Origin: Betaproteobacteria bacterium UKL13-2
Lineage (GTDB): Bacteria > Pseudomonadota > Gammaproteobacteria > Burkholderiales > Usitatibacteraceae
Assembly: GCA_001602455.1 (NCBI GenBank)
Contig: CP012157.1
Span: 57,733 to 121,732 of the forward strand
Direction: 5' to 3'
Length of the DNA stretch: 64,000 nt
The notes beneath the pieces are model-generated. The model made no database searches. It saw only the letters and a list, made by a program, of their open reading frames with translations, and had not been told where the DNA came from. Shown here one piece after another: positions 13,049 through 31,442 of the stretch. A program made the translations under genes and the position numbers. The number at the start of each line of letters is the position of its first letter. Positions within the stretch are counted from its first letter, which is position 1.

Positions 13049-14116
13049 ATGATCATCGTTACAGGCGGCGCAGGTTTTATTGGTTCGAACTTTATCCGTC
13101 AGTGGCTCGCCACTGAGCAAGATGGTGTTGTCAATCTTGACAAGCTGACTTATGCGGGCAATTTGCAGTCGTTGGCTGATGTGTCTGGCAACCCGCGTTA
13201 CCGCTTTGTGCAAGGCGATATTGGTGACCGCGAGTTGGTCGATCGTTTGCTGGCGGAAGTCAAACCGCACGCCATCGTCAACTTCGCCGCAGAGAGCCAT
13301 GTTGATCGCTCAATCCATGGTGCGGCAGAGTTTATCGAAACCAACGTCGTCGGTACCTTTCGCCTGATTGAATCCGTGCGCGGTTACTGGAGCGGACTAA
13401 ATGAAACGGACAAAGCCGCATTCCGGTTTCTGCACGTCAGCACCGACGAAGTGTACGGCTCACTAGACTTCGACGCGCCAGCCTTCACCGAGACACACAC
13501 CTACGCGCCCAATAGTCCCTACTCGGCTTCCAAAGCGGCGTCTGACCACCTGGTACGCGCCGCACACCATACGCATGGCCTACCAACACTGACGACAAAC
13601 TGCTCCAATAACTATGGGCCGTACCACTTCCCGGAAAAGCTGATTCCACTCATGATTAGCAACGCCGTGGCGGGCAAGGGCTTGCCGGTGTACGGTGACG
13701 GGAAGAATGTGCGTGACTGGCTCTATGTCACAGACCATTGCACTGCGATCCGGACGGTATTGAGCAAAGGTCGAATTGGCGAGACGTACAACATTGGCGG
13801 GCGTAACGAACGTAACAATCTCGACGTTGTTCATACGCTGTGTGATCTGCTCGATGAACTATCGCCACGCGCTGATGGGCAGAGTTACCGCACGCAGATC
13901 ACCTATGTAAAAGATCGACCCGGTCACGATCGCCGGTACGCAATCGACGCAACAAAATTGGAAAACGAATTGGGTTGGCGCGCGGAAGAAAACTTTGAAT
14001 CCGGCATACGCAAGACCGTCGAGTGGTACTTGGCCAACGGTGCGTGGGTAGCGGCCGCGGCGAGTGGTGAGTACCGCCATTGGGTCGAAAAACAATATGG
14101 AAAGGCTGTGGCATGA
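13049..14116 (+). CDS. rfbB: dTDP-glucose 4,6-dehydratase
   Basis: RfbB converts dTDP-glucose to dTDP-4-keto-6-deoxyglucose. The 355-residue extended SDR protein has the NAD motif [11 protein letters not shown] at the N-terminus, the catalytic STDEVYG segment (residues 131–137) and Y158-SAS-K162. Length and order agree with bacterial RmlB. Its TGA overlaps the rfbA ATG (ATGA). The product feeds both the rhamnose enzymes and probably the aminotransferase domain encoded downstream. Confidence 0.97.
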
Positions 14117-14997
14117 CGTCGAGAAAAGGGATCGTTTTAGCCGGTGGTAGCGGGACGCGGCTCTACCCGGTCACACAAGTGGTGTCGAAACAGTTGCTGC
14201 CGATCTACGATAAGCCGATGGTTTATTACCCGCTCACAACCTTGATGCTGGCAGGGATTCGCGAGATTTTGATCATCTCCACGCCGCAAGACACACCGCG
14301 ATTCCAAGAGTTGTTAGGCGACGGTAACAAGTGGGGCATATCACTTTCTTATGCCGTGCAGCCCTCTCCAGATGGTCTCGCGCAAGCGTTTTTGATCGGC
14401 GAGTCCTTTGTTGGCGACTCGAATTCTGCGCTGATTTTGGGCGACAACATTTTTTATGGACACGAACTGACAGCCATGCTCCGACGCGCCTCTGCGCGAA
14501 CGAGCGGGGCGACCGTATTTACCTATCCGGTCACTGATCCCGAACGCTACGGGGTCGCCGAGTTTGATCGTGACGGGCGGGTAGTTTCACTCGAGGAAAA
14601 ACCCGCGCAGCCGAAGTCGCGCTATGCCGTGACGGGGATTTATTTTTACGATCCGCAAGTGTGTGAGCTTGCCAAATCACTCAAACCTTCCAAGCGCGGT
14701 GAGTTGGAGATCACAGACCTGAATCGGCTGTATCTTGAGCGACAAGCGTTGAACTGCGAGAACATGGGACGCGGTATGGCGTGGCTTGACACAGGCACAC
14801 ACGAGTCTTTGTTGGAGGCGTCGCAATACATTGAGACAATCGAACGCCGACAAGGGCTTAAAGTCGCATGTCCTGAAGAAATTGCCTTTCGCCAAGGTTG
14901 GATTTCGGCGGCGGATGTGGAAGTGCTGGCGCAGCCGATGATCAAAAATGAATACGGAAAATACTTGAAGCGCATGCTGACGGAGACGCACTACTAA
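14113..14997 (+). CDS. rfbA: Glucose-1-phosphate thymidylyltransferase
   Basis: RfbA makes dTDP-glucose from glucose-1-phosphate and dTTP. The 294-residue protein begins [19 protein letters not shown], the pyrophosphorylase G-GSGTR-L signature, and contains [12 protein letters not shown] and LGDNIFYG. The ATG at 14113 overlaps the rfbB stop as ATGA and is preferred over an in-frame upstream TTG. The gene ends in TAATG overlap with rfbC. It is the first committed step for both dTDP-sugar branches suggested by this cluster. Confidence 0.97.
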
Positions 14998-15548
14998 TGA
15001 AATTGATTGACACTGAACTCGCTGACGTTAAGGTGATTGAGCCCACAGTGTATGGCGATGCGCGTGGCTTTTTTTTCGAGAGCTACAACGAGCAAAAATT
15101 CACCGAGTTAACGGGCATTGCCGCGACCTTTGTGCAAGATAACCACTCAAAGAGTGTGCGCGGGGTGCTGCGTGGCCTTCACTACCAGATTCTGCAGCCG
15201 CAGGGTAAGCTCGTTCGTGTTGTTGCTGGCGAAGTGTTTGATGTCGTGGTTGATTTGCGACGCACCTCGCCGACGTTTGGTCGTCATGTTTGCGCCACAC
15301 TTTCTGACGAAAACAAGCGCATGCTGTGGGTGCCCCCAGGGTTTGCGCATGGGTTCTTGGTGACTTCGGATAGTGCCGAATTCTTGTATAAAACAACAGA
15401 CTATTACGCGCCGCAACATGAGCGCAGTCTTCGCTGGAATGACCCGCACATCAATGTACCGTGGCCGTTGGCGGGGGGTGAAATGCCTCAGCTCAAAGCG
15501 GCGGATGCAAACGCGCCCTTGTTGGCCGACGCCGAAACGTTTGCCTAA
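14997..15548 (+). CDS. rfbC: dTDP-4-dehydrorhamnose 3,5-epimerase
   Basis: RfbC epimerises dTDP-4-keto-6-deoxyglucose at C3 and C5 on the way to dTDP-L-rhamnose. The 183-residue cupin protein has DARGFFFESY, NHSKSVRGVLRGLHYQ (catalytic His at residue 62) and WVPPGFAHGF. Length is standard. The ATG overlaps the rfbA TAA by one base. It is followed 3 bases later by the rfbD fusion gene. Confidence 0.96.
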   Translation: MKLIDTELADVKVIEPTVYGDARGFFFESYNEQKFTELTGIAATFVQDNHSKSVRGVLRGLHYQILQPQGKLVRVVAGEVFDVVVDLRRTSPTFGRHVCATLSDENKRMLWVPPGFAHGFLVTSDSAEFLYKTTDYYAPQHERSLRWNDPHINVPWPLAGGEMPQLKAADANAPLLADAETFA

Positions 15549-15551
15549 CCG

Positions 15552-17615
15552 ATGTCCAAGCCCCTAATACTCATCACCGGAAAAAACGGCCAACTAGGTT
15601 ACGAGCTGGCCGGATTATTTACCGGCGTTCACGATGTGCAAGTCGTCGCGCTAGACCGAACACAGCTTGACCTCACAAAACTCGACCAGATTCGCGCCAA
15701 GGTGCGTGAACTCCAGCCCACACTGATCATCAACGCTGCTGCTTATACGGCCGTCGATCAAGCCGAGAGTGACGCTGCGGTTGCGATGCAGGTCAATGGT
15801 ATTGCACCTGCGCTATTGGCAGAGGAAGCGAATGGCTGCGGTGCCGCGCTTATTCATTACTCGACCGATTATGTCTTTGCCGGCGACGGCACGAAACCCT
15901 ATCGCGAGTCCGATGCAGTTCAACCGCAAAATGTCTATGGCCGAACCAAGCTGGCTGGTGAGCTTGCGATTGCGAGTATCGCCAAGCGCTACCTGATTCT
16001 GCGTACCGCTTGGTTGTATTCAAATCGCCGACACAATTTCTTGCTCACGATGCTGCGCTTGGCGCGTGAGCGAAGTGAGTTAAAAGTCGTCAACGACCAG
16101 CTCGGCTCACCGACTTGGGTGCGTGATGTTGCCGTCGCCACACAGCAAATGGTGCAAGTCAACGCAGCAGAAATTTCGGTGACGATTCCGAACGGCGTCT
16201 ATCACGTCACTGCGACGGGGGTGACGTCGTGGCATGGATTTGCTGACGCCATCATTTGCGGAACCACCGACCCCGCTCGCAAGATTAAACAAGTTGATGC
16301 GATCAGCAGCGCCCAGTACAACGCGCCGGCGAAGCGCCCGGCCTACTCCGTGTTGTCGCATGAAAAACTAGAAGCGGCAGGAATTGTTACGCGCAACTGG
16401 CAGGCACAACTTGCCGACTGCATCGCAGAGCGTGCGATGCTCACCGAAGAGATTGCAGTCGCACCAAATCTGCCCCCAGTACAAGTCTTCTTACCTACGT
16501 TTCGCGTCGACGAGTGTCTGGCTGAGATTCGCGAATGCCTTGAAAAAGGTTGGACCGGCTTGGGATACAAGACGGTGACGTTTGAAGACGCATGGAAGCG
16601 CTACACCGGGCTTCCATATGCTCACTTCTTGAATTCGGCAACCGTAGGACTACACCTTGCGGTTGAGGTGTTAAAGCGCAAACACGGCTGGGCGGACGGC
16701 GACGAGGTCATCACCACACCGCTCACGTTTGTGTCAGACAGCCACACGATTTTGTACGCGAAGATGAAGCCCGTGTTTGCGGACGTTGATGAGTTTCTTT
16801 GTCTCGACGCGGCAGATGTGGCTGCCAAGATCACGCCAAAAACGAAAGCGGTGATGTTTGTTGGTATCGGGGGCAACCCCGGCCAATACGACGCGGTGTT
16901 GAAGTTGTGCCGCGAGCGCGGCTTGGCAATGATTCTTGACGCGGCGCATATGTCGGGAACGCGTGTGGAGAACGGCGGTCAAATGAAACATGTTGGCTTT
17001 GATGCAGATGTGGCCGTGTTCAGTTATCAAGCAGTGAAGAACCTGCCCACGGCGGACGCCGGTATGGTTTGTTTCCGCGATCAGACTGATGATGAAATGG
17101 CGCGCAAACTAACTTGGTTGGGAATCAACCAAGACACCTACGCACGCACCGCCTCTGAAGGAAACTATAAGTGGAAGTACGATGTTGAATTTGTCGGCTA
17201 CAAGTACCACGGCAATTCGATCATGGCCGCGATTGCGTTAGTCCAACTGAAGTATCTCGATGGGGACAACACACGCCGGCGCGAGATTGCGAACCGCTAC
17301 CGTGCTGGTTTTGCACCGTACTCAAACATTCGTACCATCCCCGTACCCACCGCCTGCGAATCGGCAACACACCTGTTTCAGATACGTGTCAGTAATCGCG
17401 ACGAGTTGATGGAAGCACTGAATCACGCAGGCATATTCCCCGGCGTACACTATCGGGACAACACCTTGTACCGAATGTTCTCCTACGGCGACGGCACATG
17501 TCCAAGGGCGCGAATGGCGTCGGATGAAATTATTTCACTGCCACTACACTTGCGACTAACCGATGTCGATGTTGATCGTGTCATCGCTGCCGTGGTTCAG
17601 CGCGCCGCTCCTTAA
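15552..17615 (+). CDS. rfbD: RfbD (dTDP-4-dehydrorhamnose reductase) fused to a DegT/DnrJ-type sugar aminotransferase
   Basis: Residues 1 to about 298 are a complete RfbD reductase: TGKNGQLG (9–16), STDYVFAG (104–111), YGRTK (Y129, K133) and RTAWLY. Residues about 308–687 are a PLP aminotransferase of the DegT/DnrJ/EryC1/StrS fold: TGLGYKT, LNSATVGLHLAV, ILDAAHMSGT (D463) and FSYQAVKNLPTADAG with K496 as the likely PLP lysine. There is no stop or internal restart between the halves. Free RfbD is about 295 residues and free aminotransferases about 370–390, so both parts look whole. The fusion suggests one protein handling both the rhamnose branch and a 4-amino-6-deoxyhexose branch; this is inference. 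Confidence 0.9.
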   Translation: MSKPLILITGKNGQLGYELAGLFTGVHDVQVVALDRTQLDLTKLDQIRAKVRELQPTLIINAAAYTAVDQAESDAAVAMQVNGIAPALLAEEANGCGAALIHYSTDYVFAGDGTKPYRESDAVQPQNVYGRTKLAGELAIASIAKRYLILRTAWLYSNRRHNFLLTMLRLARERSELKVVNDQLGSPTWVRDVAVATQQMVQVNAAEISVTIPNGVYHVTATGVTSWHGFADAIICGTTDPARKIKQVDAISSAQYNAPAKRPAYSVLSHEKLEAAGIVTRNWQAQLADCIAERAMLTEEIAVAPNLPPVQVFLPTFRVDECLAEIRECLEKGWTGLGYKTVTFEDAWKRYTGLPYAHFLNSATVGLHLAVEVLKRKHGWADGDEVITTPLTFVSDSHTILYAKMKPVFADVDEFLCLDAADVAAKITPKTKAVMFVGIGGNPGQYDAVLKLCRERGLAMILDAAHMSGTRVENGGQMKHVGFDADVAVFSYQAVKNLPTADAGMVCFRDQTDDEMARKLTWLGINQDTYARTASEGNYKWKYDVEFVGYKYHGNSIMAAIALVQLKYLDGDNTRRREIANRYRAGFAPYSNIRTIPVPTACESATHLFQIRVSNRDELMEALNHAGIFPGVHYRDNTLYRMFSYGDGTCPRARMASDEIISLPLHLRLTDVDVDRVIAAVVQRAAP

Positions 17616-17635: not shown

Positions 17636-18136
17636 ATGGAAACAATGACTGCCGCAATTTATGCCACTCGCGTCCATCTTCGTCTGTTAGTCGAAGACGA
17701 TTTGGAAATGACGCTGGCTTGGCGTAACCGCGACGAGGTACGTCGCTGGTTCAAACAGTCGGATGTCATCAGCCTCGAAAGCCATCGCGCATGGTTTACA
17801 AAACACCAGCTCGTTGATGACGCATTCATGTTTGTTGTCGAAGAAAACGCAACCAACGCGCCAGTCGGGCAAGTCTCGATTTACGCTATTGATCGTGAAG
17901 TCGGTGAAGCCGAGGTCGGGCGATTCATTGCGGCGCCCGGCATCTCGGGGCAAGGCTACATGCGCGACGCAATCAGTGCGCTGGTGCATTTTGCGTTCAG
18001 TGATTTGCGCTTGCAGCGTGTCTACCTTGAGGTGCTGGCCGACAATGCGCGTGCGATTCGCTTATATGAATCGCTTGCGTTTAGAAAACACGGCGAACAC
18101 GATGGTCTGGTGGTCATGGAATTGCGTGCAGGATGA
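17636..18136 (+). CDS. GNAT-family N-acetyltransferase (RimJ/RimL-like)
   Basis: This 166-residue GNAT protein has the N-terminal VHLRLLVEDDLEMTLAWRN, then GEAEVGRFIAAP and the acetyl-CoA loop-like GISGQGYMRDAI, with VLADNARAIRLYESLAF near the end. Such proteins acetylate amines, including dTDP-amino sugars in WecD/PseH-type roles. Position right after the aminotransferase fusion and ahead of the O-chain exporter suggests N-acetylation of a 4-amino-4,6-dideoxyhexose. A protein or ribosomal substrate cannot be excluded. It overlaps the following permease gene by 4 bases. Confidence 0.82.
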   Translation: METMTAAIYATRVHLRLLVEDDLEMTLAWRNRDEVRRWFKQSDVISLESHRAWFTKHQLVDDAFMFVVEENATNAPVGQVSIYAIDREVGEAEVGRFIAAPGISGQGYMRDAISALVHFAFSDLRLQRVYLEVLADNARAIRLYESLAFRKHGEHDGLVVMELRAG

Positions 18137-18930
18137 CGCCGTTGCGTAAAATCAGCAGGGACCAAGTCGCCGCGCTCAAGAACTGGCGTGTCTGGTGGCA
18201 TTTGGGCATGGCGGATGTGCGTAACCGCTTTGCCAAATCGTTCGTTGGCCCAACGTGGATTTTGTTGAACCTTGCGCTATGGGTCGGAGGCATGGGTATC
18301 ATTTATGGAACGCTCTTCCAGCAGCCACTCGACACCTATCTACCTTTTCTGACCATTGGTTTTGTGTGCTGGGGATTTCTGAGCCAAACCATCACCGATG
18401 GCGGTAACGCATTTGTATTCGCCGAGGGCTACATCAAGCAGTTTACGTATCCAAAACAAATTTATGTGCTGCGTGTGATTGTGAATGCGAGTGTGCCGTT
18501 TATGATCGGCGTGCTAATTTTTCTTGCAGTGGTACTGGCGATGGGACAGCCGATTGGCCCAGGCATGCTGTGGGTGCTACCGGGGCTAGTACTTGTTCTG
18601 TTGGTAAGCTATCTACATGCCTTAATCATGGCTTACGCTTCAGCACGCTTTCGCGATTTACCGCATGGCATGACGGCGTTGCTGCAAGTGCTGATGTTTG
18701 TGACCCCGATCTTCTTTACGGTTGAAACACTTGCGAAGCGTGGCCTTGATTTCGTTTATAAGTACAACCCGCTTTACTATCTGATCGATGTGGTACGCCA
18801 CCCGCTCACTAAACTCGAGCCTGCGCCTACCGAAGTTTATGTGGTGACAATTCTCTACATGTTGGTTGCGGCGCTTGTTGCGATGTTCGTGGCGATCCGG
18901 CTGGACCGTCGTATCGTGTACATCCTATGA
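18133..18930 (+). CDS. wzm: Polysaccharide ABC exporter, membrane subunit
   Basis: This 265-residue Wzm-type permease has several hydrophobic membrane segments (for example [20 protein letters not shown] and [19 protein letters not shown]) and the conserved YPLPFxxPxF-like end region with [13 protein letters not shown]-like residues. It should export a lipid-linked glycan across the inner membrane with Wzt. It starts 4 bases before the acetyltransferase stop and ends with an ATGA overlap with the ATPase gene, so the pair is co-translated. Confidence 0.9.
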
Positions 18931-19715
18931 GCAGCCTGTCCATCACACTTAAAGATGTCGGTGTTCGATTTGATATCGGCACCGCCGCAGACGGGCACAC
19001 GCTAAAAGGGTTTTTGGCGAACCTGAAGAATCGCGCACCGCGACAGACAAACGTAGTCGAAGCGCTCCGCGGTGTAAGTCTTGAAATTAGGGCGGGTGAA
19101 CGTGTTGGGCTCATTGGGCATAACGGCGCAGGCAAATCGACCCTGCTCAAAGTGATGGCGGGGATCTACCCGCCAACAGCGGGGCGCGCCCGAACGATTG
19201 GGCACATATGTCCGCTGTTTGAGTTTGCGACCGGCTTCGAGTACAACCGATCAGGATGGGAGAATATCCGCATTCGTGCGATGTTGCTCGGGATGCAGCC
19301 CGACGAGATTGAAGCAAAGCTGCCTGAAATTGCGGACTTTTCAGAACTTGGGAAATTCCTTGACTACCCGGTTAGGACGTACTCGACCGGGATGTTTGTT
19401 CGTTTAGCCTTCGCGGTATCCACCTCGGTTAATCCAGAGATCCTGCTGCTCGATGAAGTCATGGGCGCGGGGGATTTGGCCTTTACAGAAAAGGCGAATG
19501 TTCGCATGCGCGAATTCATGGATCAGGGGAAGATTCTGGTTTTTTCGTCGCATAGCTTGAATTTGCTGGCGGAGTATTGCAATCGCACCGTTTGGATGGA
19601 TCACGGACGAGTGCTCGAAGACGGGCCTACAAATACTGTTGTAAATGCGTACAAAGTCCATGCGCTGGGTCGCTCAACGATGTTGCCATCCAACCAAACC
19701 GCCGACGCAGTTTGA
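18927..19715 (+). CDS. wzt: Polysaccharide ABC exporter, ATPase subunit
   Basis: This 262-residue ABC ATPase powers Wzm. Walker [10 protein letters not shown] is at residues 64–72, followed by the [13 protein letters not shown] signature and [12 protein letters not shown] Walker B. It resembles Wzt/TagH-type exporters. It stops soon after the ATPase domain and lacks the extra C-terminal carbohydrate-binding domain that many Wzt proteins use to recognise capped O-chains. That suggests export is not controlled by terminal modification here. The next gene begins 12 bases later. Confidence 0.92.
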
Positions 19716-19726
19716 TCGCACACGCG

Positions 19727-21685
19727 ATGTCACCGAACATACAACGCGTCGGCGATCAACCGTTGGCTCCCTCCATTGGCCTGATCGTACTTTTCACGGG
19801 CGATGTCAGCAGTCTGCTCGCACAGGCAAAACAGTTGCTGTTCGATTTGCGTTATTACGCTGAACGCGACGACCGCGCAGTTGAGATGGTGCTGGTAATC
19901 GATGGGCAGGCGTGGCGCGATGCGCTGTCGGCAGACGAATTGAATATCCCGTCTGCACAGACGGTTGTGCGAGAGACGGCGACGCAGCTCCCCGGCGTAA
20001 TGGCCAATGCGGCCGCCGAGCTTCTCAGCGCCTCGTGGCTCGCTTTCCTTGGTATTGGTAGTGAAATCAGCACATGGTATTCAAACTTGTCTGCCTGGCG
20101 CGACATTCTCGCCGCCACGTCAGCAGAAGCGATTGCAGGATATCGAAGTGCAAGCGAGGGGCGCTCGGCCGCGAACGAATCGTATCTCGTGCATCAGAAC
20201 GACCAATTTTCGAGCGACTATCCACATGCCTGGCTGCAAATGCTGGACCTTGTACCCATGTGCAATGTATTCGTGCGGCACGCGCTGTTGCGACGTATCG
20301 GCGGGTTCACCGAAGCGGCTGTGATGCAGCGTATGTGGTGGTGGGAGTTTTGCCTTCGTGTCACTCGGACAAAGCCGATTGTTTCAGTGCCGATGCAACC
20401 GGTGCCAGGGCCGAATTGGCACCACTACCCATTCACTCACGCATTAGCGTTGCCTGTGGCGAGGGCATTGCCTGGGCTGATGCGCGTCACTGCCGACCCA
20501 AAGCGAGTGACCCCGTCGCGCAAAGATGAAATTGATGTGCCGCCGCGCCAACAAGTACATTCGGTAATCGCGATCAACGCGTTGTCCCCCACTTGGCGCA
20601 GTCTTCCCCGCGCCATGCAGCATCGTTTCCACGAGGCGCTGATTTCCCGTGGACGTCCGCTCGAAATCGTGGTGGTCGGTGGCGTCAACGAGCCCGCACA
20701 CAATCAGCTTTGTTTCTTTAACTACTTTGCGTTGATGCGTGATTGGGGTGCCGTGAACTGGCGCGTAGTGCTAGATGAACGCGCCGCAGAATCGGACATT
20801 CTCGGCGCAGACTTGGTGATCTTTAGCCGCGTGCGCAATGATGCCGGGGTCGCACTCATGGCGGCGTGCCAGCGCCACCATGTGGCGACGCTCTATATGC
20901 TCGACGACAATTGGATATGGCTGGGGCGGGAATGGGATGAGTACGCGCCGATTTTCTCGCCGGGTGCGGCACCTTATGAAAACTTTCTCAAGCTAGTGGG
21001 CGAAGCGGATGTGACGCTGACCTACCGTGAGCCACTCGCCGACGATCTGAGGCCATACGCGAGACGCGTCATCACGCTACCGACGAATGTCGATCTTCGA
21101 GCCTTTGTTGGCACGGTGGGAAAGAAAGCGACACGTCGCCACAAGATTGGCTACGTCGGCAGTCTGCGAAAAAACATGGTCGCCTTCGATGCCTTAATCG
21201 AGATTGTCCGTCGGCGAGACGACGTCGATCTCTTCGTCATGTCAAACGCCTTGCCAGCGGAGTTCGAGGCGCTGCCCAAAGCACGGGTGCACTTTGAACC
21301 CTATCAATTCAACTATACGGCGTACGCAGCAACTGTTGTCGCAGCGGCGCTCGATGTACTCGTTGCACCGGTCGGAAAGACACGTTTTGAAGCCTCCAAA
21401 TGCCCGAATAAATACTTAGAGATCTCTGCTGCGGGTGCGGTCGGCGTGTACTCGCGTGCTGAGCCCTATACGACCTATGTGCAAGATGGCGTGACGGGAC
21501 TGTTCGCCGACGACGCGGTGGCGTCTTGGGTTGCCGCCATTGAGCGGCTGCTTGATGACCCTGATCAACGGTCAAAAATTGCCGACCAAGCACGTCGCCA
21601 CATCGCGACTCAATTTGACACCCACGCGGTGTTACCGGCGTTTGTCGAGATGTTGTTAGACACCGTCGGCTCGCGTCTGGCCTGA
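19727..21685 (+). CDS. Large two-domain glycosyltransferase
   Basis: This 652-residue protein appears to have two glycosyltransferase-like parts. The N-terminal half (residues about 15–270) has a GT2-like organisation with a MWWWEF segment and CNVFVRHALLRRIGGF. The C-terminal half (about 280–650) is GT4-like: IGYVGSLRKNMVAFDALIEI, VLVAPVGKTRFEASKCPNK and a final AAIERLLDDP. ATG 19727 is chosen because upstream in-frame sequence overlaps wzt. The stop codon lies inside the left end of a 140-base repeat. The sugars are unknown; location suggests O-chain assembly. Confidence 0.8.
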   Translation: MSPNIQRVGDQPLAPSIGLIVLFTGDVSSLLAQAKQLLFDLRYYAERDDRAVEMVLVIDGQAWRDALSADELNIPSAQTVVRETATQLPGVMANAAAELLSASWLAFLGIGSEISTWYSNLSAWRDILAATSAEAIAGYRSASEGRSAANESYLVHQNDQFSSDYPHAWLQMLDLVPMCNVFVRHALLRRIGGFTEAAVMQRMWWWEFCLRVTRTKPIVSVPMQPVPGPNWHHYPFTHALALPVARALPGLMRVTADPKRVTPSRKDEIDVPPRQQVHSVIAINALSPTWRSLPRAMQHRFHEALISRGRPLEIVVVGGVNEPAHNQLCFFNYFALMRDWGAVNWRVVLDERAAESDILGADLVIFSRVRNDAGVALMAACQRHHVATLYMLDDNWIWLGREWDEYAPIFSPGAAPYENFLKLVGEADVTLTYREPLADDLRPYARRVITLPTNVDLRAFVGTVGKKATRRHKIGYVGSLRKNMVAFDALIEIVRRRDDVDLFVMSNALPAEFEALPKARVHFEPYQFNYTAYAATVVAAALDVLVAPVGKTRFEASKCPNKYLEISAAGAVGVYSRAEPYTTYVQDGVTGLFADDAVASWVAAIERLLDDPDQRSKIADQARRHIATQFDTHAVLPAFVEMLLDTVGSRLA

Positions 21686-21820: not shown

Positions 21821-22043
21821 CCAGGTCGAAAACCGCCATTGCCGCAACGCTACTTTTCGTACACACAGGGGCAACAATAGCGCTGCTATACTCAAGCGCT
21901 AACTCAACGGCTAAATTTTCGAGCGAAAACCGTGCGTTCTTGTCGCGTGCGGATGACCGCAAAAAAGCAACGTCACCGATTGCACAAAATTGACCGCAGA
22001 CACCGACCACTCCTCCATTGACCCGTCGCCCACAGTCGCCAGT

Positions 22044-23738
22044 ATGCGAATCGGTGAGCTTCTGCTCCAGCGAGGCAAACTGGATGCCGCGAATTTGGAT
22101 CGTGCGCTGAAAGTGCAAGAAACCGCAAAGCAATCGGGCAGCCGTGAAAAATTGGGCTCGATTCTCACTCGCATGGGCATGTTGTCCCATCGTGAACTGG
22201 CATTGTCACTCGCCGCGCAGCGCGGCTGGTCCATCATTGATGTTGCGGAGTTTCCTGAATTACCGCTGCTTGAAGAAACGGTGTCGCCGCGTTTTATTCA
22301 AGAATCACGAGCTATTCCAGTCGCCGACGTCGAAGGCGAACTTGTACTGGCCATGGTGGACCCACAAGATGCGTTCACCCTGCAAGCGTTTGCTGCCGCA
22401 ACCGGCAAGCGGGTGACGGTCAAACTGCTGACGGCCAATGATTTCGACGTCGTCTTCGAGCGCCTCTACGGTGCAGGTAAATCGTCGATGGGGCAAATCG
22501 TTGACGACATCTCAACCCGCGATGAAGAGCAAGAGTTTGGCGATATTGAGCACCTAAAAGATCTTGCCTCAGAAGCGCCAGTTATTCGGCTGGTGAATCT
22601 CATCATTAACCATGCGCTGGAACGCCGCGCATCTGATATTCATATTGAGCCGTTTGAGAATCGCCTGATTGTTCGCTACCGTATTGATGGCGTGCTTCAT
22701 GAGACCGAATCGCCGCCACGCCGGTTATCGGCGGCGATCATCTCGCGCATCAAGATCATGGCGAATCTCGATATCGCCGAGCGCCGCCTGCCGCAGGACG
22801 GGCGCATCAAGTTGCGCGTACAGGGCAAGGAAATCGATTTGCGTGTGTCCACGGTACCCACCATGCACGGCGAATCGGTCGTGATGCGTATCTTGGACAA
22901 AGGCGGCGTCGCGCTGGATTTTTCCGCGCTGGGATTTGACGAGAGCAATCTTAAGGTGTTCTTGGATTTGCTGTCGCAACCACACGGCGTGTTGCTTGTG
23001 ACGGGCCCAACTGGTTCGGGCAAAACCACCACGCTCTACACGGCGCTTGACCGTCTGAATCAACCCGACGTCAAGATTCTGACCGTCGAAGACCCGGTGG
23101 AATACCAGATGCCGGGAATCAATCAAATTCAGGTCAAGCCGCAAATTGATCTCACATTTGCAAACGCGTTGCGCTCCATCGTGCGCCAAGACCCGGATGT
23201 CATCATGATTGGGGAGATTCGTGACTTGGAAACCGCGCAGATTGCCGTGCAGTCCGCCTTGACGGGGCACTTGGTGATGTCCACCGTACACACCAATGAC
23301 GCCGCCTCAACCATCAATCGCCTACTCGATATGGGGGTGGATGATTACCTGCTGACGTCCACAGTCATTGGTATTCAAGCGCAGCGCTTGGTTCGCCGAC
23401 TGTGCGGCCACTGCAAGACACCGTATCACCCGGTTGATGAAGTCGTCGAACAAATGGGATTGAAGCGTTTCACCAAAGCCGAGCGCGTGTCGCTGTTTCA
23501 TGCAAAGGGTTGTGAGCATTGCGGCCACACTGGCTATTACGGTCGCGAGTGCATCATGGAGGTCCTGCCCATCACCGACAATTTGCGCAGCCTGGTGATG
23601 CGCCATGGCACCGCCTCGGAGATGCGTCAAGTCGCCGTGGCAGAGGGCATGGAGACCATGTACGAGAATGGTCTGAAGAAGGCTGTGCAGGGTGTGACGA
23701 CGATCGAAGAAGTTCTTCGCGTTACGCGCGAAGACTGA
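22044..23738 (+). CDS. gspE: Type II secretion ATPase GspE
   Basis: GspE is the cytoplasmic ATPase that drives pseudopilus assembly. The protein is 564 residues from ATG 22044 (MRIGELLLQRGKL); a TTG at 21990 would add 18 poorly supported residues. It has an MshEN N-terminal domain, Walker A GPTGSGKTTT, the Asp box EDPVEYQ, Walker B IMIGEIRD, STVHTNDA, and a zinc-type four-Cys motif (CGHCKTPY and CEHCGHTGY). It opens a long operon in the Xps order. Confidence 0.95.
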   Translation: MRIGELLLQRGKLDAANLDRALKVQETAKQSGSREKLGSILTRMGMLSHRELALSLAAQRGWSIIDVAEFPELPLLEETVSPRFIQESRAIPVADVEGELVLAMVDPQDAFTLQAFAAATGKRVTVKLLTANDFDVVFERLYGAGKSSMGQIVDDISTRDEEQEFGDIEHLKDLASEAPVIRLVNLIINHALERRASDIHIEPFENRLIVRYRIDGVLHETESPPRRLSAAIISRIKIMANLDIAERRLPQDGRIKLRVQGKEIDLRVSTVPTMHGESVVMRILDKGGVALDFSALGFDESNLKVFLDLLSQPHGVLLVTGPTGSGKTTTLYTALDRLNQPDVKILTVEDPVEYQMPGINQIQVKPQIDLTFANALRSIVRQDPDVIMIGEIRDLETAQIAVQSALTGHLVMSTVHTNDAASTINRLLDMGVDDYLLTSTVIGIQAQRLVRRLCGHCKTPYHPVDEVVEQMGLKRFTKAERVSLFHAKGCEHCGHTGYYGRECIMEVLPITDNLRSLVMRHGTASEMRQVAVAEGMETMYENGLKKAVQGVTTIEEVLRVTRED

Positions 23739-23765
23739 CGCCCTTTCAACAAATAAAGATCTGGT

Positions 23766-23870
23766 AACCGCAGATAAACGCCGATGAACGCAGATACCAA
23801 AAGCGACGCAAAAATTGAACGACATTTTGTCGACAGACGATCTGCGTTTATCTGCGTTTATCTGCGGTTT
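23766..23870. repeat. Inverted CGCAGATAAACG-type repeat between gspE and gspF
   Basis: The left arm AACCGCAGATAAACGCCGAT with ACGCAGAT pairs with the right arm, which holds ATCTGCGTTTATCTGCG and CTGCGGTTT. The arms are about 30 bases and the spacer about 45. The unit GCAGATAAACGC is repeated within the arms. It lies inside the operon and could form a strong mRNA hairpin. Confidence 0.8.
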
Positions 23871-23890
23871 CAAGTTTTGCGCGCTTAACG

Positions 23891-25147
23891 ATGCCACTTT
23901 TCCAATACAAGGCGGTCAGCCCGGCGGGTGAGATGCAAGAAGGTGTGCTTGATGCGGTGTCGCAAGACGGCGTGATCGCGCATCTCAAGACGCTTGGGCT
24001 AATTCCGATTCGCGCCGCCGAAGTTTCCGCGCAAGGCGCGGTGCAAGGCGCGTCTGGAACGCCCACAACCAGCAACGGCAAAGCTGCCACATGGTCGTTG
24101 TTTTCCTCACAAAACGTCGGGCAGGCGGAGTTGGCGATTGTCACGCGAGAACTCGCGACGTTGCTCAAGGCCGGTCTGCCGCTCGATCGTAGTTTGGAAA
24201 TCCTGATCAACTTGGCTGAGCGCGAACGTATGCGCGAATTGCTAATGGCCATTCGCAACGAAGTGCGCGGTGGTTCATCGCTTTCCAAGGCGCTCGACCA
24301 GCATCGTTATGTGTTCACGCGTTTTTATATCAATATGGTTAAAGCGGGTGAAGCCGGCGGTTCGCTTGGTGGCGTGTTGTTGCGTCTTGCCGACTACATG
24401 GAGCGGGCAAAGGAGTTGCGTGATACGGTGGTCTCGGCGCTGATCTATCCGGTGTTTTTGCTGGGCGGCGCGTTGGTGTCGATTTGCCTCATCTTGTTGG
24501 TGGTGGTGCCGCAGTTCAAACAGATTTTTCTGCAGTCGGGCGCGGCGATATCGACCGCGACGGCGGCATTGTTTTCGGTCAGTTTTTTTCTGCGCGACAG
24601 TTGGCAAATTCTGATTGCGATCACGCTGGGTACGGTTTGGTTGGTGTCGCGCTCGTTTCAGCAGCCCGCATCCAAAGCGCGTTGGGATCGGCGTATGCTC
24701 GGCTGGGGAATTATTGGTAAGCTGATTGGCCGAATCGAAATGGCGCGTTTTGCGCGGTCACTCGCAACGTTGCTGGAGAACGGCGTGCCGCTGCTGTCGA
24801 GCATGTTCATTCTGAAAGAAACGATCAACAACGCGGTGTTCCGTGACGCGCTTGAGTTTGTCGCGCGCGAACTAAAAGAAGGCCGCGGCTTTGCCAAGCC
24901 GATGCTGGAGACAAATGTATTCCCGAAACTCGCCGTGCAGATGATCTCGGTCGGCGAAGAAACCGGCAAGCTCAGCGAAATGTTGTACCAAGTTGCTGAT
25001 GTCTACGATCGCGAAGTGGCGGTGCTGATTAAACGGGCGTTGGCGTTACTACAGCCGGTGTTGATTATTTTCCTGGCCGGATTTATCGCGGGCATCATGT
25101 TCTTGTTGCTCGATCCGATGCTCGGCATGATGGATATTAAGTTTTGA
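23891..25147 (+). CDS. gspF: Type II secretion inner-membrane protein GspF
   Basis: GspF is the polytopic platform protein that interacts with GspE and GspL. The 418-residue sequence starts MPLFQYKAVSPAGEMQEG, contains two GspF domains (around residues 75–200 and 280–400) with GEAGGSLGGVLLRLA and GEETGKLSEML, and has membrane segments near 180–205 and 385–410. Length is typical. It follows an inverted repeat and is followed by gspG 19 bases later. Confidence 0.95.
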   Translation: MPLFQYKAVSPAGEMQEGVLDAVSQDGVIAHLKTLGLIPIRAAEVSAQGAVQGASGTPTTSNGKAATWSLFSSQNVGQAELAIVTRELATLLKAGLPLDRSLEILINLAERERMRELLMAIRNEVRGGSSLSKALDQHRYVFTRFYINMVKAGEAGGSLGGVLLRLADYMERAKELRDTVVSALIYPVFLLGGALVSICLILLVVVPQFKQIFLQSGAAISTATAALFSVSFFLRDSWQILIAITLGTVWLVSRSFQQPASKARWDRRMLGWGIIGKLIGRIEMARFARSLATLLENGVPLLSSMFILKETINNAVFRDALEFVARELKEGRGFAKPMLETNVFPKLAVQMISVGEETGKLSEMLYQVADVYDREVAVLIKRALALLQPVLIIFLAGFIAGIMFLLLDPMLGMMDIKF

Positions 25148-25166
25148 TTTTTATAGAGAGCTTGTC

Positions 25167-25595
25167 ATGAACATACAAAACATGCGTCGCAATGGATTCA
25201 CGCTAATGGAGATCATCATCGTCATCACCATCATCGGCCTCGTGGTGGCGTGGGCGGGCAATCGGATTTTTGGTCAAGGCGATAAAGCGAAGTCGGGACT
25301 GGCAAAAGCGCGGATGAGTGAGATTTCGGCGCAGCTCGATATGTACAAACTCGACACCGGCCGTTACCCGACCACGGCGGAAGGATTGCGCGCTCTTTTG
25401 GCCAACCCTGGTAATGCAACAAACTGGAACGGGCCGTATGTGAAGAATGCGGACACGCTCAAAGATCCGTGGAGCAATGAGATGATCTACAAGTCGCCGG
25501 GCGACGCCAATCGCCCGTTCGAGTTGACCTCGCTCGGTGCAGATGGCAAAGAAGGCGGTGAGGGTGCTGATCGGGATGTGCGTTCTTGGGATTGA
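25167..25595 (+). CDS. gspG: Major pseudopilin GspG
   Basis: GspG is the main subunit of the T2SS pseudopilus. The 142-residue preprotein has a short leader cut after Gly in RNG^FTLMEIIIVI (Glu5 present), then the hydrophobic helix and a globular domain with SLGADGKEGGEGADRDVRSWD, the calcium-site region typical of GspG. It is preceded by GAGCTTGTC, a modest ribosome-binding site. It sits in the conserved G-H-I-J order. Confidence 0.96.
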   Translation: MNIQNMRRNGFTLMEIIIVITIIGLVVAWAGNRIFGQGDKAKSGLAKARMSEISAQLDMYKLDTGRYPTTAEGLRALLANPGNATNWNGPYVKNADTLKDPWSNEMIYKSPGDANRPFELTSLGADGKEGGEGADRDVRSWD

Positions 25596-25625
25596 GTCCT
25601 CACGACCCGGCGCACGGGAGTTGAC

Positions 25626-26114
25626 GTGAGTCGGGCAAGTCGGCCGTTCACGAACGGCGGTTTTACGCTGCTCGAGCTGGTGCTGGTCGTGATGCTGATC
25701 GCGCTGATGTTCACGCTCGTGCCGCGCATGATGGGCAGCGGTGTTTCGGGCACTGAGTTGAAGTCCAACGTTCGCGCAATTGCTGCCGCGATGAAACTTG
25801 CGCGCGATTCGGCAATCAACACGCGACGTGATGCGTTTGTGACCGTCAACGTCGAGAGTCGTGAATTAACCACGACCTATGAAGACAAGACGCACAAGCT
25901 CAATGATCAGCTCACGCTGAAGCTATTCACCTCGCAGGCCGACCAGATTAACGAACAGACGGCGAGCTTTCGTTTTTATCCGGACGGTTCGTCAAACGGC
26001 GGCCGAGTCACAGTCGCAGCAGGTGAGGCAGGAAACGCACGCGAGTTTGCCATCGACGTGGATTGGTTGACCGGTCGCGTGACAGTTTCTGATCTTCAAG
26101 CGCCAAAAGTCTAG
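25626..26114 (+). CDS. gspH: Minor pseudopilin GspH
   Basis: This 162-residue prepilin-like protein starts at GTG 25626. The leader ends at Gly before FTLLELVLVVMLIAL. The remainder is a weakly conserved beta-rich domain, as usual for GspH. It lies between gspG and gspI. The TAG stop (26112–26114) is part of CTAG at the left end of a hairpin repeat, so the repeat abuts the coding end exactly. Confidence 0.85.
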   Translation: MSRASRPFTNGGFTLLELVLVVMLIALMFTLVPRMMGSGVSGTELKSNVRAIAAAMKLARDSAINTRRDAFVTVNVESRELTTTYEDKTHKLNDQLTLKLFTSQADQINEQTASFRFYPDGSSNGGRVTVAAGEAGNAREFAIDVDWLTGRVTVSDLQAPKV

Positions 26115-26166
26115 TATCCATGGGCATTTTCAGGCAAAAATGTGTGAAAACGCCCGTCTTTGCTAG
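26111..26166. repeat. Palindromic hairpin repeat (family A) at gspH–gspI
   Basis: CTAGTATCCATGGGCATTTT and TGAAAACGCCCGTC with TTTGCTAG form an imperfect inverted repeat, related to the copy at 9681–9736 and sharing the CTAG ends. It covers the gspH stop codon and the first possible gspI start. Confidence 0.7.
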
Positions 26167-26893
26167 GGTTTGCCAGAAGGGAACTTCTAAAAACCTACTG
26201 CGCGGGCGAATCTGTCAGTTCCAGAGCTCGCCGTACACTGGGTACGTGTCCGCTCCTCACTGCCAACTTCACCCGCTCGTGACGGTTTTTAGAAGTTCCC
26301 AGAACACGCGACCCTGCCGGGGCAGCACTCGCTGCGCCGAAGACGCTAAATTAGGCCCCGGCCTTCGCCGGGGCAGCACTCGCTGCGCGAGTGCTGGCTT
26401 TACCTTGTTGGAAATATTGGTGGCCTTCACACTGTTGGCGCTGGCGATGGGCATCATCATGCAGATTTTTTCGCGGGGCGTGAACGGTGCTGACTTGGCC
26501 GACCGTTACGCCAAGGCGGCGATGCTGGCCGAATCCAAGCTCGCTGCGATTGGGATTGAAGAAGTGCTTGCCGAAGGTAGTTACAACGGTCAGTTTGACG
26601 ATAACTTCGCTTGGACGATGTCGGTTCGGGCATATATCTCAGCCGCAGAGCCTGCGACGCTTTCTACGTTGGAAACGAACGCGCTCGCAAATGCGCAGGC
26701 AACAGGTGTTGGGGGAACCATCGCCTCAACACTGACACCGACTGCGGCATCGACAACGCTGGGGAATGTCGATATCGATGCGTTGATGTTTGTACGTCTC
26801 TATGAGGTGGAGCTGAGCGTGGCGTTCACAACCGACGACGGCCGCCAACGCATGGTGACCTTGAACACGATGAAGATTGGGCCACGCATATGA
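26120..26893 (+). CDS. gspI: Minor pseudopilin GspI with abnormal 5' end
   Basis: From about residue 90 the protein is a normal GspI: SAG^FTLLEILVAFTLLALAMG (G93, E98), then a globular domain ending RQRMVTLNTMKIGPRI. The 90 residues before it are encoded by repeats at 26111–26390 and look non-native (Arg/Cys/Pro-rich). Normal prepilin leaders have about 5–25 residues. In-frame starts are ATG 26120, GTG 26246 and GTG 26279, all giving long leaders. The native start was probably replaced by repeat insertion. Whether prepilin peptidase still processes the product is uncertain. Confidence 0.75.
   Translation: MGIFRQKCVKTPVFARVCQKGTSKNLLRGRICQFQSSPYTGYVSAPHCQLHPLVTVFRSSQNTRPCRGSTRCAEDAKLGPGLRRGSTRCASAGFTLLEILVAFTLLALAMGIIMQIFSRGVNGADLADRYAKAAMLAESKLAAIGIEEVLAEGSYNGQFDDNFAWTMSVRAYISAAEPATLSTLETNALANAQATGVGGTIASTLTPTAASTTLGNVDIDALMFVRLYEVELSVAFTTDDGRQRMVTLNTMKIGPRI
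26179..26300. repeat. Palindromic element (family C) in the gspI 5' region
   Basis: Perfect inverted ends, GGGAACTTCTAAAAACC and GGTTTTTAGAAGTTCCC, enclose about 88 bases that contain GCTCGCCGTACACTGGGTA. A second copy at 42807–42940 has ends that differ but still pair. Next to it, the 22-base unit starting GCCGGGGCAGCACTCGCTGC is directly repeated at 26316 and 26367. Confidence 0.8.
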
Positions 26894-27606
26894 GTCGTCT
26901 TCATCGGCAGGATGCGCGTGGCTTCACGTTAATCGAAATCTTGCTCGTCATGACGCTGATGGCGGCGATGATGGGCATGATTTACGCCTCGCTCAATGTG
27001 GGCATTCGGGCGTGGGACGCTGGCGATGTGCGCGTTGCACAAGCGTCCGACTGGCGGTTGGTTGAGCGCTTTATGCGGCGGGAGCTAGGGCAAATTTTCC
27101 CGACCCGTTGGCGCGGCATTGTGCAGCCCTATATCGCTTTTGAAGGGACTAAAACCACCTTGCGATACGTCACCGCGCTCACTCTCGACGCGTCTTTGCA
27201 GAACGGCGCTGCCGGTGGTTTGCAATGGGCCGAGCTGACGCTTGCCGATGGCGGCATTTTGCAACTCAACCGTCAGCCGTTTGATAGTGCCGCGCAAAAC
27301 TTTGATGCGCTGGTCTCGCCAACCCGCGACCAACTCAGCACCACCCCACCCGTACCACCGGTTCGCTTGATGGACAACGTGACCGCCTTTGAGATTGCCT
27401 ACTTTGGTGCCGAGACTGATATCACCGAGCCGACTTGGCGCGAAGAATGGAAAGACCTTGCACGGCTGCCGACGCTCGTCCGTATAAAGGTCGAAACGAG
27501 TCGCGGTCGCGACGCGCCGGAAATGGTGTTTGCGCTCAAGGTGGGTGAGGAGGCCGGGTGCCTCAGCACTAATTTCACGCGTCAATGTGGGCCGAGGCCG
27601 CGATGA
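26890..27606 (+). CDS. gspJ: Minor pseudopilin GspJ
   Basis: This 238-residue prepilin-like protein begins MSRLHRQDARG^FTLIEILLVMT, with Glu5 and a hydrophobic helix, followed by a long globular domain with RRELGQIFPTRWRG. GspJ forms the pseudopilus tip with GspI and GspK. The start overlaps the gspI stop by 4 bases. The C-terminus runs slightly past the gspK start (4-base overlap). Confidence 0.9.
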   Translation: MSRLHRQDARGFTLIEILLVMTLMAAMMGMIYASLNVGIRAWDAGDVRVAQASDWRLVERFMRRELGQIFPTRWRGIVQPYIAFEGTKTTLRYVTALTLDASLQNGAAGGLQWAELTLADGGILQLNRQPFDSAAQNFDALVSPTRDQLSTTPPVPPVRLMDNVTAFEIAYFGAETDITEPTWREEWKDLARLPTLVRIKVETSRGRDAPEMVFALKVGEEAGCLSTNFTRQCGPRPR

Positions 27607-28607
27607 TCGCCCGACACGACTCAACGCGCCAACGCGGTGTTGCACTCATCATCGTGCTGTGGATTATCACGCTCCTGATGGTGATTGCGGCGTCGTTCAT
27701 CCAGACCATGCGCACCGATGTGAATGTCGTCGCAAATTCACTCGTGCGAGTGAAATCCGAAGCGCTGGCAGATGCTGGCTTGCAGCGGGCGCTGTATGAG
27801 CTTGCCAAGCCACAGAACATTGATGGCCGCTGGACCACTGACGGCAGCTCGCGGGAATGGTTGTACCGCGATATTGTCGTGAACATCACCATGCAAGATG
27901 AAACTGGCAAGATCGACATCAATCGTGCTGCCGACGCGCTGATGCGCGGGCTGCTGCTATCGCAGGCGGTGCCAGAGGAAGACGCCACCAAATTGGTTGA
28001 TGCCATCGCCGATTGGCGGGATGCGGACTCGAATCGGCGGCTGAAGGGGGCTGAGGCACCCGAATACACAGCGGCCGGCCTCTCCTACGGCCCGGCGAAC
28101 GCGCTGTTCCAATCAACTGAAGAATTGAAGCTGGTTGTGGGGATGACGCCGGAGATTTTTACCCGCATCGCGCCTTTGATCACGATTTTTTCCGGGCAAC
28201 CCGGCATCAACGAACAGGTGGCGACACGCGAGGTGCTGCGCGCACTGCCGAATGTTAACGACGAACAAATTGACGACTATCTGACCCGCCGAGACATTGC
28301 GCGTGCCTCGCGCCGACCCATCCCCAATTTCCCGCAAAATTTGTTCCGCAGCCCCTCGAACAATCAAACGCCGGCACGAATACGCACCGAGACCATGGTT
28401 TCCGACGGAAACCGGTTTGTGCGCGAAGTTGTTGTTCGGCGTTACACCGACCCGAAACGGCCCTACGCATATTTGTCTTGGAAAGAGGGGCGCGATTTGC
28501 CAGAATTGCTGTCCCAGAACCCCGACGGCAGCAAGCCGCCAGCAACAAACGGTAACACGTCGGCGATGACGCTGGGTAAGATGATTTCGCCCGGTGCCAC
28601 CCCATAA
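27603..28607 (+). CDS. gspK: Minor pseudopilin GspK
   Basis: GspK caps the pseudopilus tip. The 334-residue protein starts at ATG 27603, overlapping the gspJ TGA as ATGA; an ATG 18 bases upstream is possible. It has the leader-like RQRGVALIIVLWIITLLMVI, a hydrophobic helix, and a large helix-rich domain with DETGKIDINRA typical of GspK. As in other GspK proteins, the usual Glu5 is absent. Length is typical. Confidence 0.9.
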   Translation: MIARHDSTRQRGVALIIVLWIITLLMVIAASFIQTMRTDVNVVANSLVRVKSEALADAGLQRALYELAKPQNIDGRWTTDGSSREWLYRDIVVNITMQDETGKIDINRAADALMRGLLLSQAVPEEDATKLVDAIADWRDADSNRRLKGAEAPEYTAAGLSYGPANALFQSTEELKLVVGMTPEIFTRIAPLITIFSGQPGINEQVATREVLRALPNVNDEQIDDYLTRRDIARASRRPIPNFPQNLFRSPSNNQTPARIRTETMVSDGNRFVREVVVRRYTDPKRPYAYLSWKEGRDLPELLSQNPDGSKPPATNGNTSAMTLGKMISPGATP

Positions 28608-28625
28608 AGGTAAGATGCAGGTCTT

Positions 28626-29909
28626 ATGTCAGCCGTCACGCCACCAACACCCGTCATTCCTCCCATCTCCCGCTCAGGAGTCGGTATCTCGCGCATCGCC
28701 ATGCCGCGCGGATTGTCGAATTTCTGGGCGTGGTGGTGCAACGAGTTGCGCGGTGTGTTTCAGCCGCTGATTGAAAACTATTGGGTCGATCGTGCCGACA
28801 CAGTCGATGTTCGATTGGCCGCCGAGGGCGAGCCTGCGTCGCTACCAACACTCAGTGGCCGCGATGTGCGGGTGTTGGTGGATTGGACGCATGTCTTGCA
28901 GAAGACGGTGAGCTACCCTGCGGTTGTCGAAGAGAATCTCGCCATGGTCTTGGCAAATGATTTGGATCGCCAAACGCCGTTTACACCTGACCAGATTTAC
29001 TTGACCCATCGCGTCGAGAGTAGATCAGAGTCCAGCGATGGCGTTGCGCGCATCGATGTGCAGCTCACTATCGTTCTGCGACGTGTGGTGGCTCCAGTGA
29101 TCGACCGAATTCGCGCCAGCGGTGGTACGGTTTATTCGGTTGTCATCACGAATCCGGCGAATGGTCACACGCTGGAGATGTTGCCGGTTGCGGAGTGGAC
29201 GCCTCGTCGGCTCAGTCAACTGCAAAAAATTAACTTGGGCTTGTTGGCGACACTTTTTGCGCTTTGTTTTGCGGCCATTGTGGTGCCCATTGCGCAGCGA
29301 CGTGCAGAAGTGATTGCACTTCAGCCGATGGTCGATAAGGCCAGAAATGAAGCCGACGCAACGCGCAAAATTGAAGCCGAGTTCCAGCGATTGTCGCAGG
29401 AGTACCAAATGGCGACGACAAAAAAATACCAAGCCTACGCGGTGGTTGACATCATTGAGGAGCTAACCCGGTTGTCGCCCGACACGACTTGGCTACAGAG
29501 TCTGGAGATGAAGTCGCCGCCGGGGGCGGGCAAAGGCAAGAACAGCATCCGCGAAGTCCAACTCATTGGCGAAGCAGCATCAGCATCGAAAATGATCGAA
29601 GCATTGGAACAATCGCCGCTATTGCAAAACACCACGCAACGCGCACAGACCACACGCGGCTCTCAGCCCAACACCGAGCGATTCCAGATTGCCACGGAGC
29701 TAAAGCCAAGAGTGATGCCGGAGATGATCGACCTCATCGCTGAACCCCCTGCCACGCCGATGCCGACGGGGCCAGCGGTACCCTCCGCATCAACGCCAAC
29801 ACCGGCGGCACCAACACCAGCGGCACCACCACCAGCAACATCGACCCCCGCGGATACAAAACCTGCGCTCGTGTCGCCTGCGCCACCTCGTGCAAAGGCA
29901 ACGCAATGA
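28626..29909 (+). CDS. gspL: Type II secretion protein GspL (Xps/PilN-like type)
   Basis: This 427-residue protein has a divergent actin-like cytoplasmic N-terminus, one membrane segment (INLGLLATLFALCFAAIVVPI, about residues 200–220), then a periplasmic coiled-coil and ferredoxin-like part related to PilN. The last 50 residues are Pro/Ala/Thr-rich. GspL links the GspE ATPase to the inner membrane. The order K-L-M-N-D matches Xanthomonas Xps. Its TGA overlaps the start region of gspM. Confidence 0.82.
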   Translation: MSAVTPPTPVIPPISRSGVGISRIAMPRGLSNFWAWWCNELRGVFQPLIENYWVDRADTVDVRLAAEGEPASLPTLSGRDVRVLVDWTHVLQKTVSYPAVVEENLAMVLANDLDRQTPFTPDQIYLTHRVESRSESSDGVARIDVQLTIVLRRVVAPVIDRIRASGGTVYSVVITNPANGHTLEMLPVAEWTPRRLSQLQKINLGLLATLFALCFAAIVVPIAQRRAEVIALQPMVDKARNEADATRKIEAEFQRLSQEYQMATTKKYQAYAVVDIIEELTRLSPDTTWLQSLEMKSPPGAGKGKNSIREVQLIGEAASASKMIEALEQSPLLQNTTQRAQTTRGSQPNTERFQIATELKPRVMPEMIDLIAEPPATPMPTGPAVPSASTPTPAAPTPAAPPPATSTPADTKPALVSPAPPRAKATQ

Positions 29910-29919
29910 AGGCGAATCC

Positions 29920-30603
29920 ATGAGTGCCGTACCGACTTCCACCGCATCGCCATCGATGCCGACCTCGCCGTTCAAGTTGCGCACGCCATCGGCCAACAGG
30001 AATGTGGCGCTTGGACTATTGGCGCTTGCGATTGCGGGCGTGATCGCGCTCGTTGCCGGGCCAGCCTGGTGGCTATACGACCGCTATGAAAGTCGTGCAT
30101 CGATGCTGGCCCGTCAGTACACCGGCTATTCGTCATTGAATCAGATGCAGCCGGCGTTGATCAAATCGGTTGAGACACTGAAGGCGCGTGACACCAAGAA
30201 ATATTTTCTGAAGGGTACAACGGCAGCACTGGCGGGTGCTGAGTTGCAGGACCTTGCACGCGGCCTCATCGAAGCCAACAACGGTAAGTTGCTTTCCGCG
30301 CAATTGCTCCCGCATAAAGACGAAAATGGTTATCGTCAGGTCAACGCGACGATCACCATGATGGCGAATATCCAAAATTTGCGGCAATTTCTCTATGCGC
30401 TCGAAACCCGCGACCCGTATTTATTTGTCGATAACTTAACGGTTCGTTCGCAAGTGCCGTCGAATTTCAAACCGCAGCCCGGTATCGAGCCTGAGTTGTT
30501 TGTGCAATTTGATGTTGCGGGATTGACGCCAATCGCACAAGCGACGCCACCCAGCGATACAAAAGTCGCCCCCGGTAAACCCGCCGTGAAACCGAAATCA
30601 TGA
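29920..30603 (+). CDS. gspM: Type II secretion protein GspM
   Basis: This 227-residue single-pass protein starts at ATG 29920 behind GAAGG; an upstream GTG at 29890 would extend into gspL. A membrane segment (VALGLLALAIAGVIALVAG, about residues 25–45) is followed by a periplasmic GspMb-like domain with LPHKDENGYRQVNATITM. GspM partners GspL. It ends in an ATGA overlap with the next gene. Confidence 0.85.
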   Translation: MSAVPTSTASPSMPTSPFKLRTPSANRNVALGLLALAIAGVIALVAGPAWWLYDRYESRASMLARQYTGYSSLNQMQPALIKSVETLKARDTKKYFLKGTTAALAGAELQDLARGLIEANNGKLLSAQLLPHKDENGYRQVNATITMMANIQNLRQFLYALETRDPYLFVDNLTVRSQVPSNFKPQPGIEPELFVQFDVAGLTPIAQATPPSDTKVAPGKPAVKPKS

Positions 30604-31430: not shown

Positions 31431-31442
31431 CCCAAAACGAAA

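Follow-up and report, generated by a model that had tools for sequence, protein, structure and literature searches.

A single gene in the 64,000-nucleotide stretch of DNA analysed here (the window) encodes an RmlD reductase joined in one reading frame to a PLP-dependent sugar aminotransferase. Judging from its sequence and gene neighbourhood, this fusion probably has two activities that meet where the pathway branches after RmlC, with both halves sharing the RmlC product. The fusion is genuine and young, is seen in a few related Burkholderiales and joins two otherwise ordinary enzymes. Both halves belong to known families; what is new is their combination. The gene occupies positions 15552-17615 of the forward strand. 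Its one ORF spans 687 codons, begins with ATG, is free of internal stops and is divided as follows.

15552..17615, + strand: rmlD-aminotransferase fusion gene, 687 aa (ORF; same fusion in five congeners)
15567..16430, + strand: RmlD domain, aa 6-293 (TIGR01214 at 322.2 bits; motif positions; own-genome search)
16431..16481, + strand: linker, aa 294-310 (alignment; per-domain identity; pLDDT <50 at 300-305)
16482..17594, + strand: DegT/ArnB/TlmJ-like PLP aminotransferase domain, aa 311-681 (PF01041; TlmJ best PDB match by sequence and Foldseek; motif positions)

The Pfam profile RmlD_sub_bind matches aa 6-293 with 341.7 bits over profile positions 3-284 of 287, while DegT_DnrJ_EryC1 (PF01041) matches aa 321-681 with 264.6 bits, against a gathering score of 19.8, over positions 6-359 of 360. 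This near-full coverage indicates that both halves are complete, as the first-pass annotation had proposed for a frame without stops, and five more genomes carry the gene stop-free. The RmlD half passes the NCBIfam rmlD equivalog TIGR01214 (322.2 bits against a cut-off of 224.05, profile 2-283 of 285). It contains the nucleotide-binding GxxGxxG motif as GKNGQLG (aa 10-16), ST at 104-105 and the YxxxK motif as Y129GRTK133, all kept in the aligned relatives. In the aminotransferase half, the DAAH motif lies at 463-466 (D463, H466) and the Schiff-base lysine is K496. This residue, within FSYQAVKN, lines up with the corresponding lysine in ArnB and TlmJ, and is Lys rather than the His of related dehydratases. 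Its surroundings had at first seemed unlike the common form of the motif; close stand-alone relatives all read S-[FY]-Q-A-V-K-N, which makes the motif normal for the subfamily.

Among close pairs only, dN/dS is 0.06-0.21 for the RmlD half and 0.06-0.10 for the aminotransferase half, values low enough to indicate purifying selection on both domains. This bears on the idea that the RmlD half has lost its reductase activity and survives as a vestigial carrier. Nothing beyond the fusion itself speaks for that idea, and it is very improbable, given intact motifs, a score well over the rmlD cut-off, purifying selection and a genome that holds no other RmlD. The fusion is indeed the only full RmlD of its genome, the next PF04321 match scoring 50 bits against 344, and the rmlC upstream of it is the only PF00908 gene. 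Among the five other fused genomes, four have the fusion as their sole RmlD match; the fifth has one more, below the cut-off (G011, C2:8105-8971). A second, more distant RmlC is found in two fused species (G003:C80:3697-4197 and G011:C67:1859-2359).

An AlphaFold model built from an 18-row alignment shows two confident domains (mean pLDDT 85.9) connected by a linker that is poorly defined at 300-305 (pLDDT <50), and a pTM of 0.57 leaves their relative orientation uncertain. The structure prediction that had been recommended as a check thus supports the two domains and leaves their arrangement loose. Foldseek with this model retrieves RmlD structures for the first half, and TlmJ (rank 1) and ArnB for the second. 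The linker has a variable sequence, 12-41% identical in distant pairs, and is 11-14 aa longer in two of the fused loci (L026 and L024); by this measure of its sequence, it is unconstrained. An internal start yielding a separately translated aminotransferase was considered and rejected, as the nearest relatives encode Thr in place of the in-frame ATG (aa 296).

The same domain order, which the first-pass annotation had proposed seeking in other genomes, was found as a one-frame, stop-free fusion in five further species of its genus (69-89% identical), and order-level and family-level searches return the same set of fused genomes. The occurrence of the same fusion in six genomes with separate assemblies is not a product of chance, sequencing or assembly error, and refutes the reading that a missed stop or an assembly frameshift created the gene. 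Outside the genus, a search of 399 genomes from the order found no fusion at E up to 1e-100, and none is visible in 340 genomes from the class at E up to 1e-75, the remaining matches there being single-domain; these searches are samples with cut-offs, below which a diverged or distant independent fusion could fall. The suspicion that homologues might always be separate proteins is thus contradicted within the genus and holds outside it in the samples searched. A phage or plasmid origin was also rejected: no record in the plasmid and phage collections covers 80% of the fusion protein, and the aminotransferase has no relative on a viral contig. PADLOC gave no defence-system match.

The genes around the fusion place it in a nucleotide-sugar operon followed by Wzm/Wzt-like export genes.

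13049..14116, + strand: rmlB, dTDP-glucose 4,6-dehydratase (TIGR01181 at 503.7 bits, above cut-off)
14116..14997, + strand: rmlA, glucose-1-phosphate thymidylyltransferase (TIGR01207 at 511.8 bits, above cut-off)
14997..15548, + strand: rmlC, dTDP-4-dehydrorhamnose 3,5-epimerase (TIGR01221 at 253.3 bits; own-genome search)
17636..18136, + strand: GNAT acetyltransferase (PF13302 at 93.3 bits; PseH at 70.5 bits against a cut-off of 93.1)
18133..18930, + strand: Wzm-like ABC-2 permease, polysaccharide export (PF01061; NF050109 at 171.6 bits, below cut-off)
18927..19715, + strand: Wzt-like ATP-binding subunit (PF00005; NF050108 at 257.4 bits, below cut-off)
19724..21685, + strand: glycosyltransferase-like protein, GT4-type C-terminal domain (PF13692)
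21990..23738, + strand: gspE, bounding the inserted cassette on the right (neighbourhood comparison)

The whole domain, the motifs and the place of the RmlD half in the order rmlB-A-C-D are those of RmlD/RfbD. RmlD/RfbD, however, is normally a free protein of ~290 aa, whereas here its C-terminus is joined to the aminotransferase. The GNAT at 17636-18136 is a probable sugar N-acetyltransferase, closest to PseH but below the PseH cut-off.

This arrangement suggests a pathway that divides after RmlC. RmlC would yield dTDP-4-keto-6-deoxy-L-mannose, an intermediate open to both halves. The RmlD half would reduce it with NAD(P)H to dTDP-L-rhamnose, while the PLP half, with glutamate, would aminate it at C4 to dTDP-4-amino-4,6-dideoxy-L-mannose or -L-talose. 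Acetylation of the amine by the GNAT would then give a 4-acetamido-4,6-dideoxy-L-hexose, and this acetylated amino sugar would enter the glycan exported by Wzm/Wzt. The complete domains, their kept motifs, purifying selection and the position of the sole RmlD behind the sole RmlC all count for this branch-point assignment.

The nearest solved structure to the aminotransferase half by sequence is TlmJ with 193 bits, a small lead over ArnB with 174, followed by C3-aminotransferases and WecE, the latter far below. TlmJ (PDB 5uid, from the tallysomycin pathway of Streptoalloteichus hindustanus) is also first by Foldseek, at 34% identity, and so is nearest in both sequence and fold. It is a free-standing enzyme of an antibiotic pathway, whereas the window aminotransferase is fused. 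ArnB, the UDP-L-Ara4N aminotransferase, is a 4-aminotransferase of an L-configured 4-keto sugar. Its substrate is, however, a UDP-pentose, and the window protein falls short of the ArnB equivalog NF008658 (206.8 against 631 bits), as it does of PseC TIGR03588 (202.2 against 423.5) and WecE TIGR02379 (97.6 against 434.85). Z-scores from VIA-align do not separate C3 from C4 aminotransferases. Amination at C4 rather than C3, and a manno or talo product, are inferences beyond what sequence can fix. Tallysomycin contains 4-amino-4,6-dideoxy-L-talose (PMC6270211). The literature searched held no report of TlmJ's own substrate. In the established pathway, the 4-keto sugar must be epimerised at C3 and C5 before it is aminated to an L-hexose of the tallysomycin type, and this epimerisation is the reaction of RmlC.

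Gene context points the same way. In a SAR86 locus (L025), the start of a 56% identical stand-alone homologue overlaps the end of rmlC by 4 bp, and no rmlD separates the two; RmlC is present in this genome and RmlD was not detected in its partial assembly of about 1.0 Mb. In another locus (L060, genome G694), a 64% identical stand-alone homologue lies directly behind rmlC. RmlC is encoded in all ten other whole genomes with this aminotransferase that were checked, in addition to SAR86, which adds little weight because RmlC is common. In every fused locus, and also in L042, L050, L060 and L061, a GNAT comes after the aminotransferase. The Aminobacter plasmid pMET1 (L050:9977-11639) carries a 60% identical stand-alone aminotransferase and a GNAT within a glycan island, and the plasmid has no PF00908 gene.

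The aminotransferase half could instead use the RmlB product, dTDP-4-keto-6-deoxy-D-glucose, to make Qui4N, Fuc4N or a similar D-sugar, so that the two halves would draw on different intermediates. Enzymes of this kind (WecE, DesI) are found in its fold family, and four stand-alone homologues (L041, L042, L050 and L061) have no adjoining rmlC. Yet the WecE score lies far under those of TlmJ and ArnB, two homologues sit directly behind rmlC and one of their genomes lacks a detectable RmlD, which makes use of the RmlB product unlikely. Kinship with TlmJ and gene context together point to dTDP-4-keto-L-rhamnose as the likeliest substrate for each half. Best homologue and context agree in suggesting that the aminotransferase half may be a TlmJ-type L-hexose 4-aminotransferase. 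The first-pass annotation had assumed that the two halves act after different branch steps; this is probably wrong, as the same evidence suggests a shared RmlC product.

Comparison with sister species suggests how the two genes came together. In five unfused species (L044, L045, L046, L047 and L049), rmlD is followed by gspE after 125-305 bp; in two others (L043 and L048), rmlD is also unfused, but other genes lie downstream. In the window, ~5.5 kb separate the end of the RmlD domain from gspE, and this space holds the aminotransferase, GNAT, Wzm, Wzt and glycosyltransferase. Four fused loci (L021, L022, L023 and L026) share this arrangement, while L024 has the cassette and lacks gspE in the stretch examined. 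Elsewhere in the Burkholderiales the cassette occurs unfused: G694 (L060) carries rmlD, rmlA, rmlC, an aminotransferase (64%), a GNAT (48%), Wzm and Wzt, and G560 (L061) carries an aminotransferase (63%), a GNAT, Wzm and Wzt. The six fused proteins group together in trees of the RmlD half (support 97/95) and of the aminotransferase half (86/99), with an identical inner branching order in both.

The trees and the cassette comparison are explained by one gain of a cassette behind rmlD and the loss of the rmlD stop. Most simply, the fusion would have arisen once in the genus, when an aminotransferase-GNAT-Wzm-Wzt-glycosyltransferase cassette landed behind rmlD. An early gain of the cassette followed by later losses needs more steps and is the less likely course. 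GC content over the cassette is 0.52-0.58 with no clear step, and a recent foreign origin judged by GC was rejected on that ground. The insertion site is the gap before gspE, and the sugar cassette directly adjoins a type II secretion (gsp) cluster at 21990-33770. The 653-aa glycosyltransferase-like protein at 19724-21685 is the fastest-changing in the cassette (48-66% identity against 67-90% for Wzm/Wzt). Its one recognised domain, of GT4 type, is C-terminal, and Pfam matches nothing in the ~470 aa before it. In one fused species, it is present as two ORFs (L023:10219-12180), which a true split or a MAG frameshift may explain.

Whether the join itself has a function is a separate matter. The loss of the rmlD stop may simply have joined co-operonic neighbours whose halves work as they do when apart, the harmless join being kept without a coupling role. 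The chances of this are about even. It agrees with the shared-substrate assignment and disputes only that the join has a function. In its favour, L060 and L061 carry the cassette unfused with its genes in the same order, the linker is free to vary in length and sequence, and the model consists of two domains kept apart by a disordered linker, with a pTM of only 0.57. Against a neutral join, all six species with the aminotransferase retain the single frame, even at 69% identity, and no re-split is seen; yet this is one inherited event. That neighbouring genes were joined neutrally is at least as possible as the coupling or holding of intermediates. In a bifunctional branch-point enzyme, the joined halves would at least be present in a fixed 1:1 ratio, and any further effect on flux is conjecture. 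Channelling or branch control by the fusion is possible, but that the fusion itself sets the split between rhamnose and 4-amino-L-hexose, whether by a fixed ratio, by shared access or by channelling from RmlC, is doubtful.

Enzyme fusions usually link consecutive steps. The nearest published fusion met in the literature search is the natural RmlC/RmlD of the alga Prymnesium parvum, which acts in the dTDP-rhamnose pathway and was shown to be bifunctional (PMC6556577). That protein joins consecutive steps, whereas the steps joined in the window fusion are probable competitors for a single intermediate. An RmlD-aminotransferase fusion was not found in the open-access texts searched. A sugar of the class predicted here, 4-amino-4,6-dideoxy-L-mannose (L-perosamine), occurs in the O6 O-antigens of Aeromonas (PMC6562859, PMC6669630), an unrelated bacterium for which the texts consulted assign no biosynthetic genes.

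The window fusion appears to join enzymes that pull one intermediate two ways, and this makes it a tidy test, set in nucleotide-sugar metabolism, of whether a fusion sets a branch ratio. Sister species free of the cassette and unfused cassettes elsewhere provide natural before/after comparisons. The stand-alone aminotransferases of other bacteria, ~50-64% identical to the fused one, are candidates for the synthesis of L-perosamine-type sugars.
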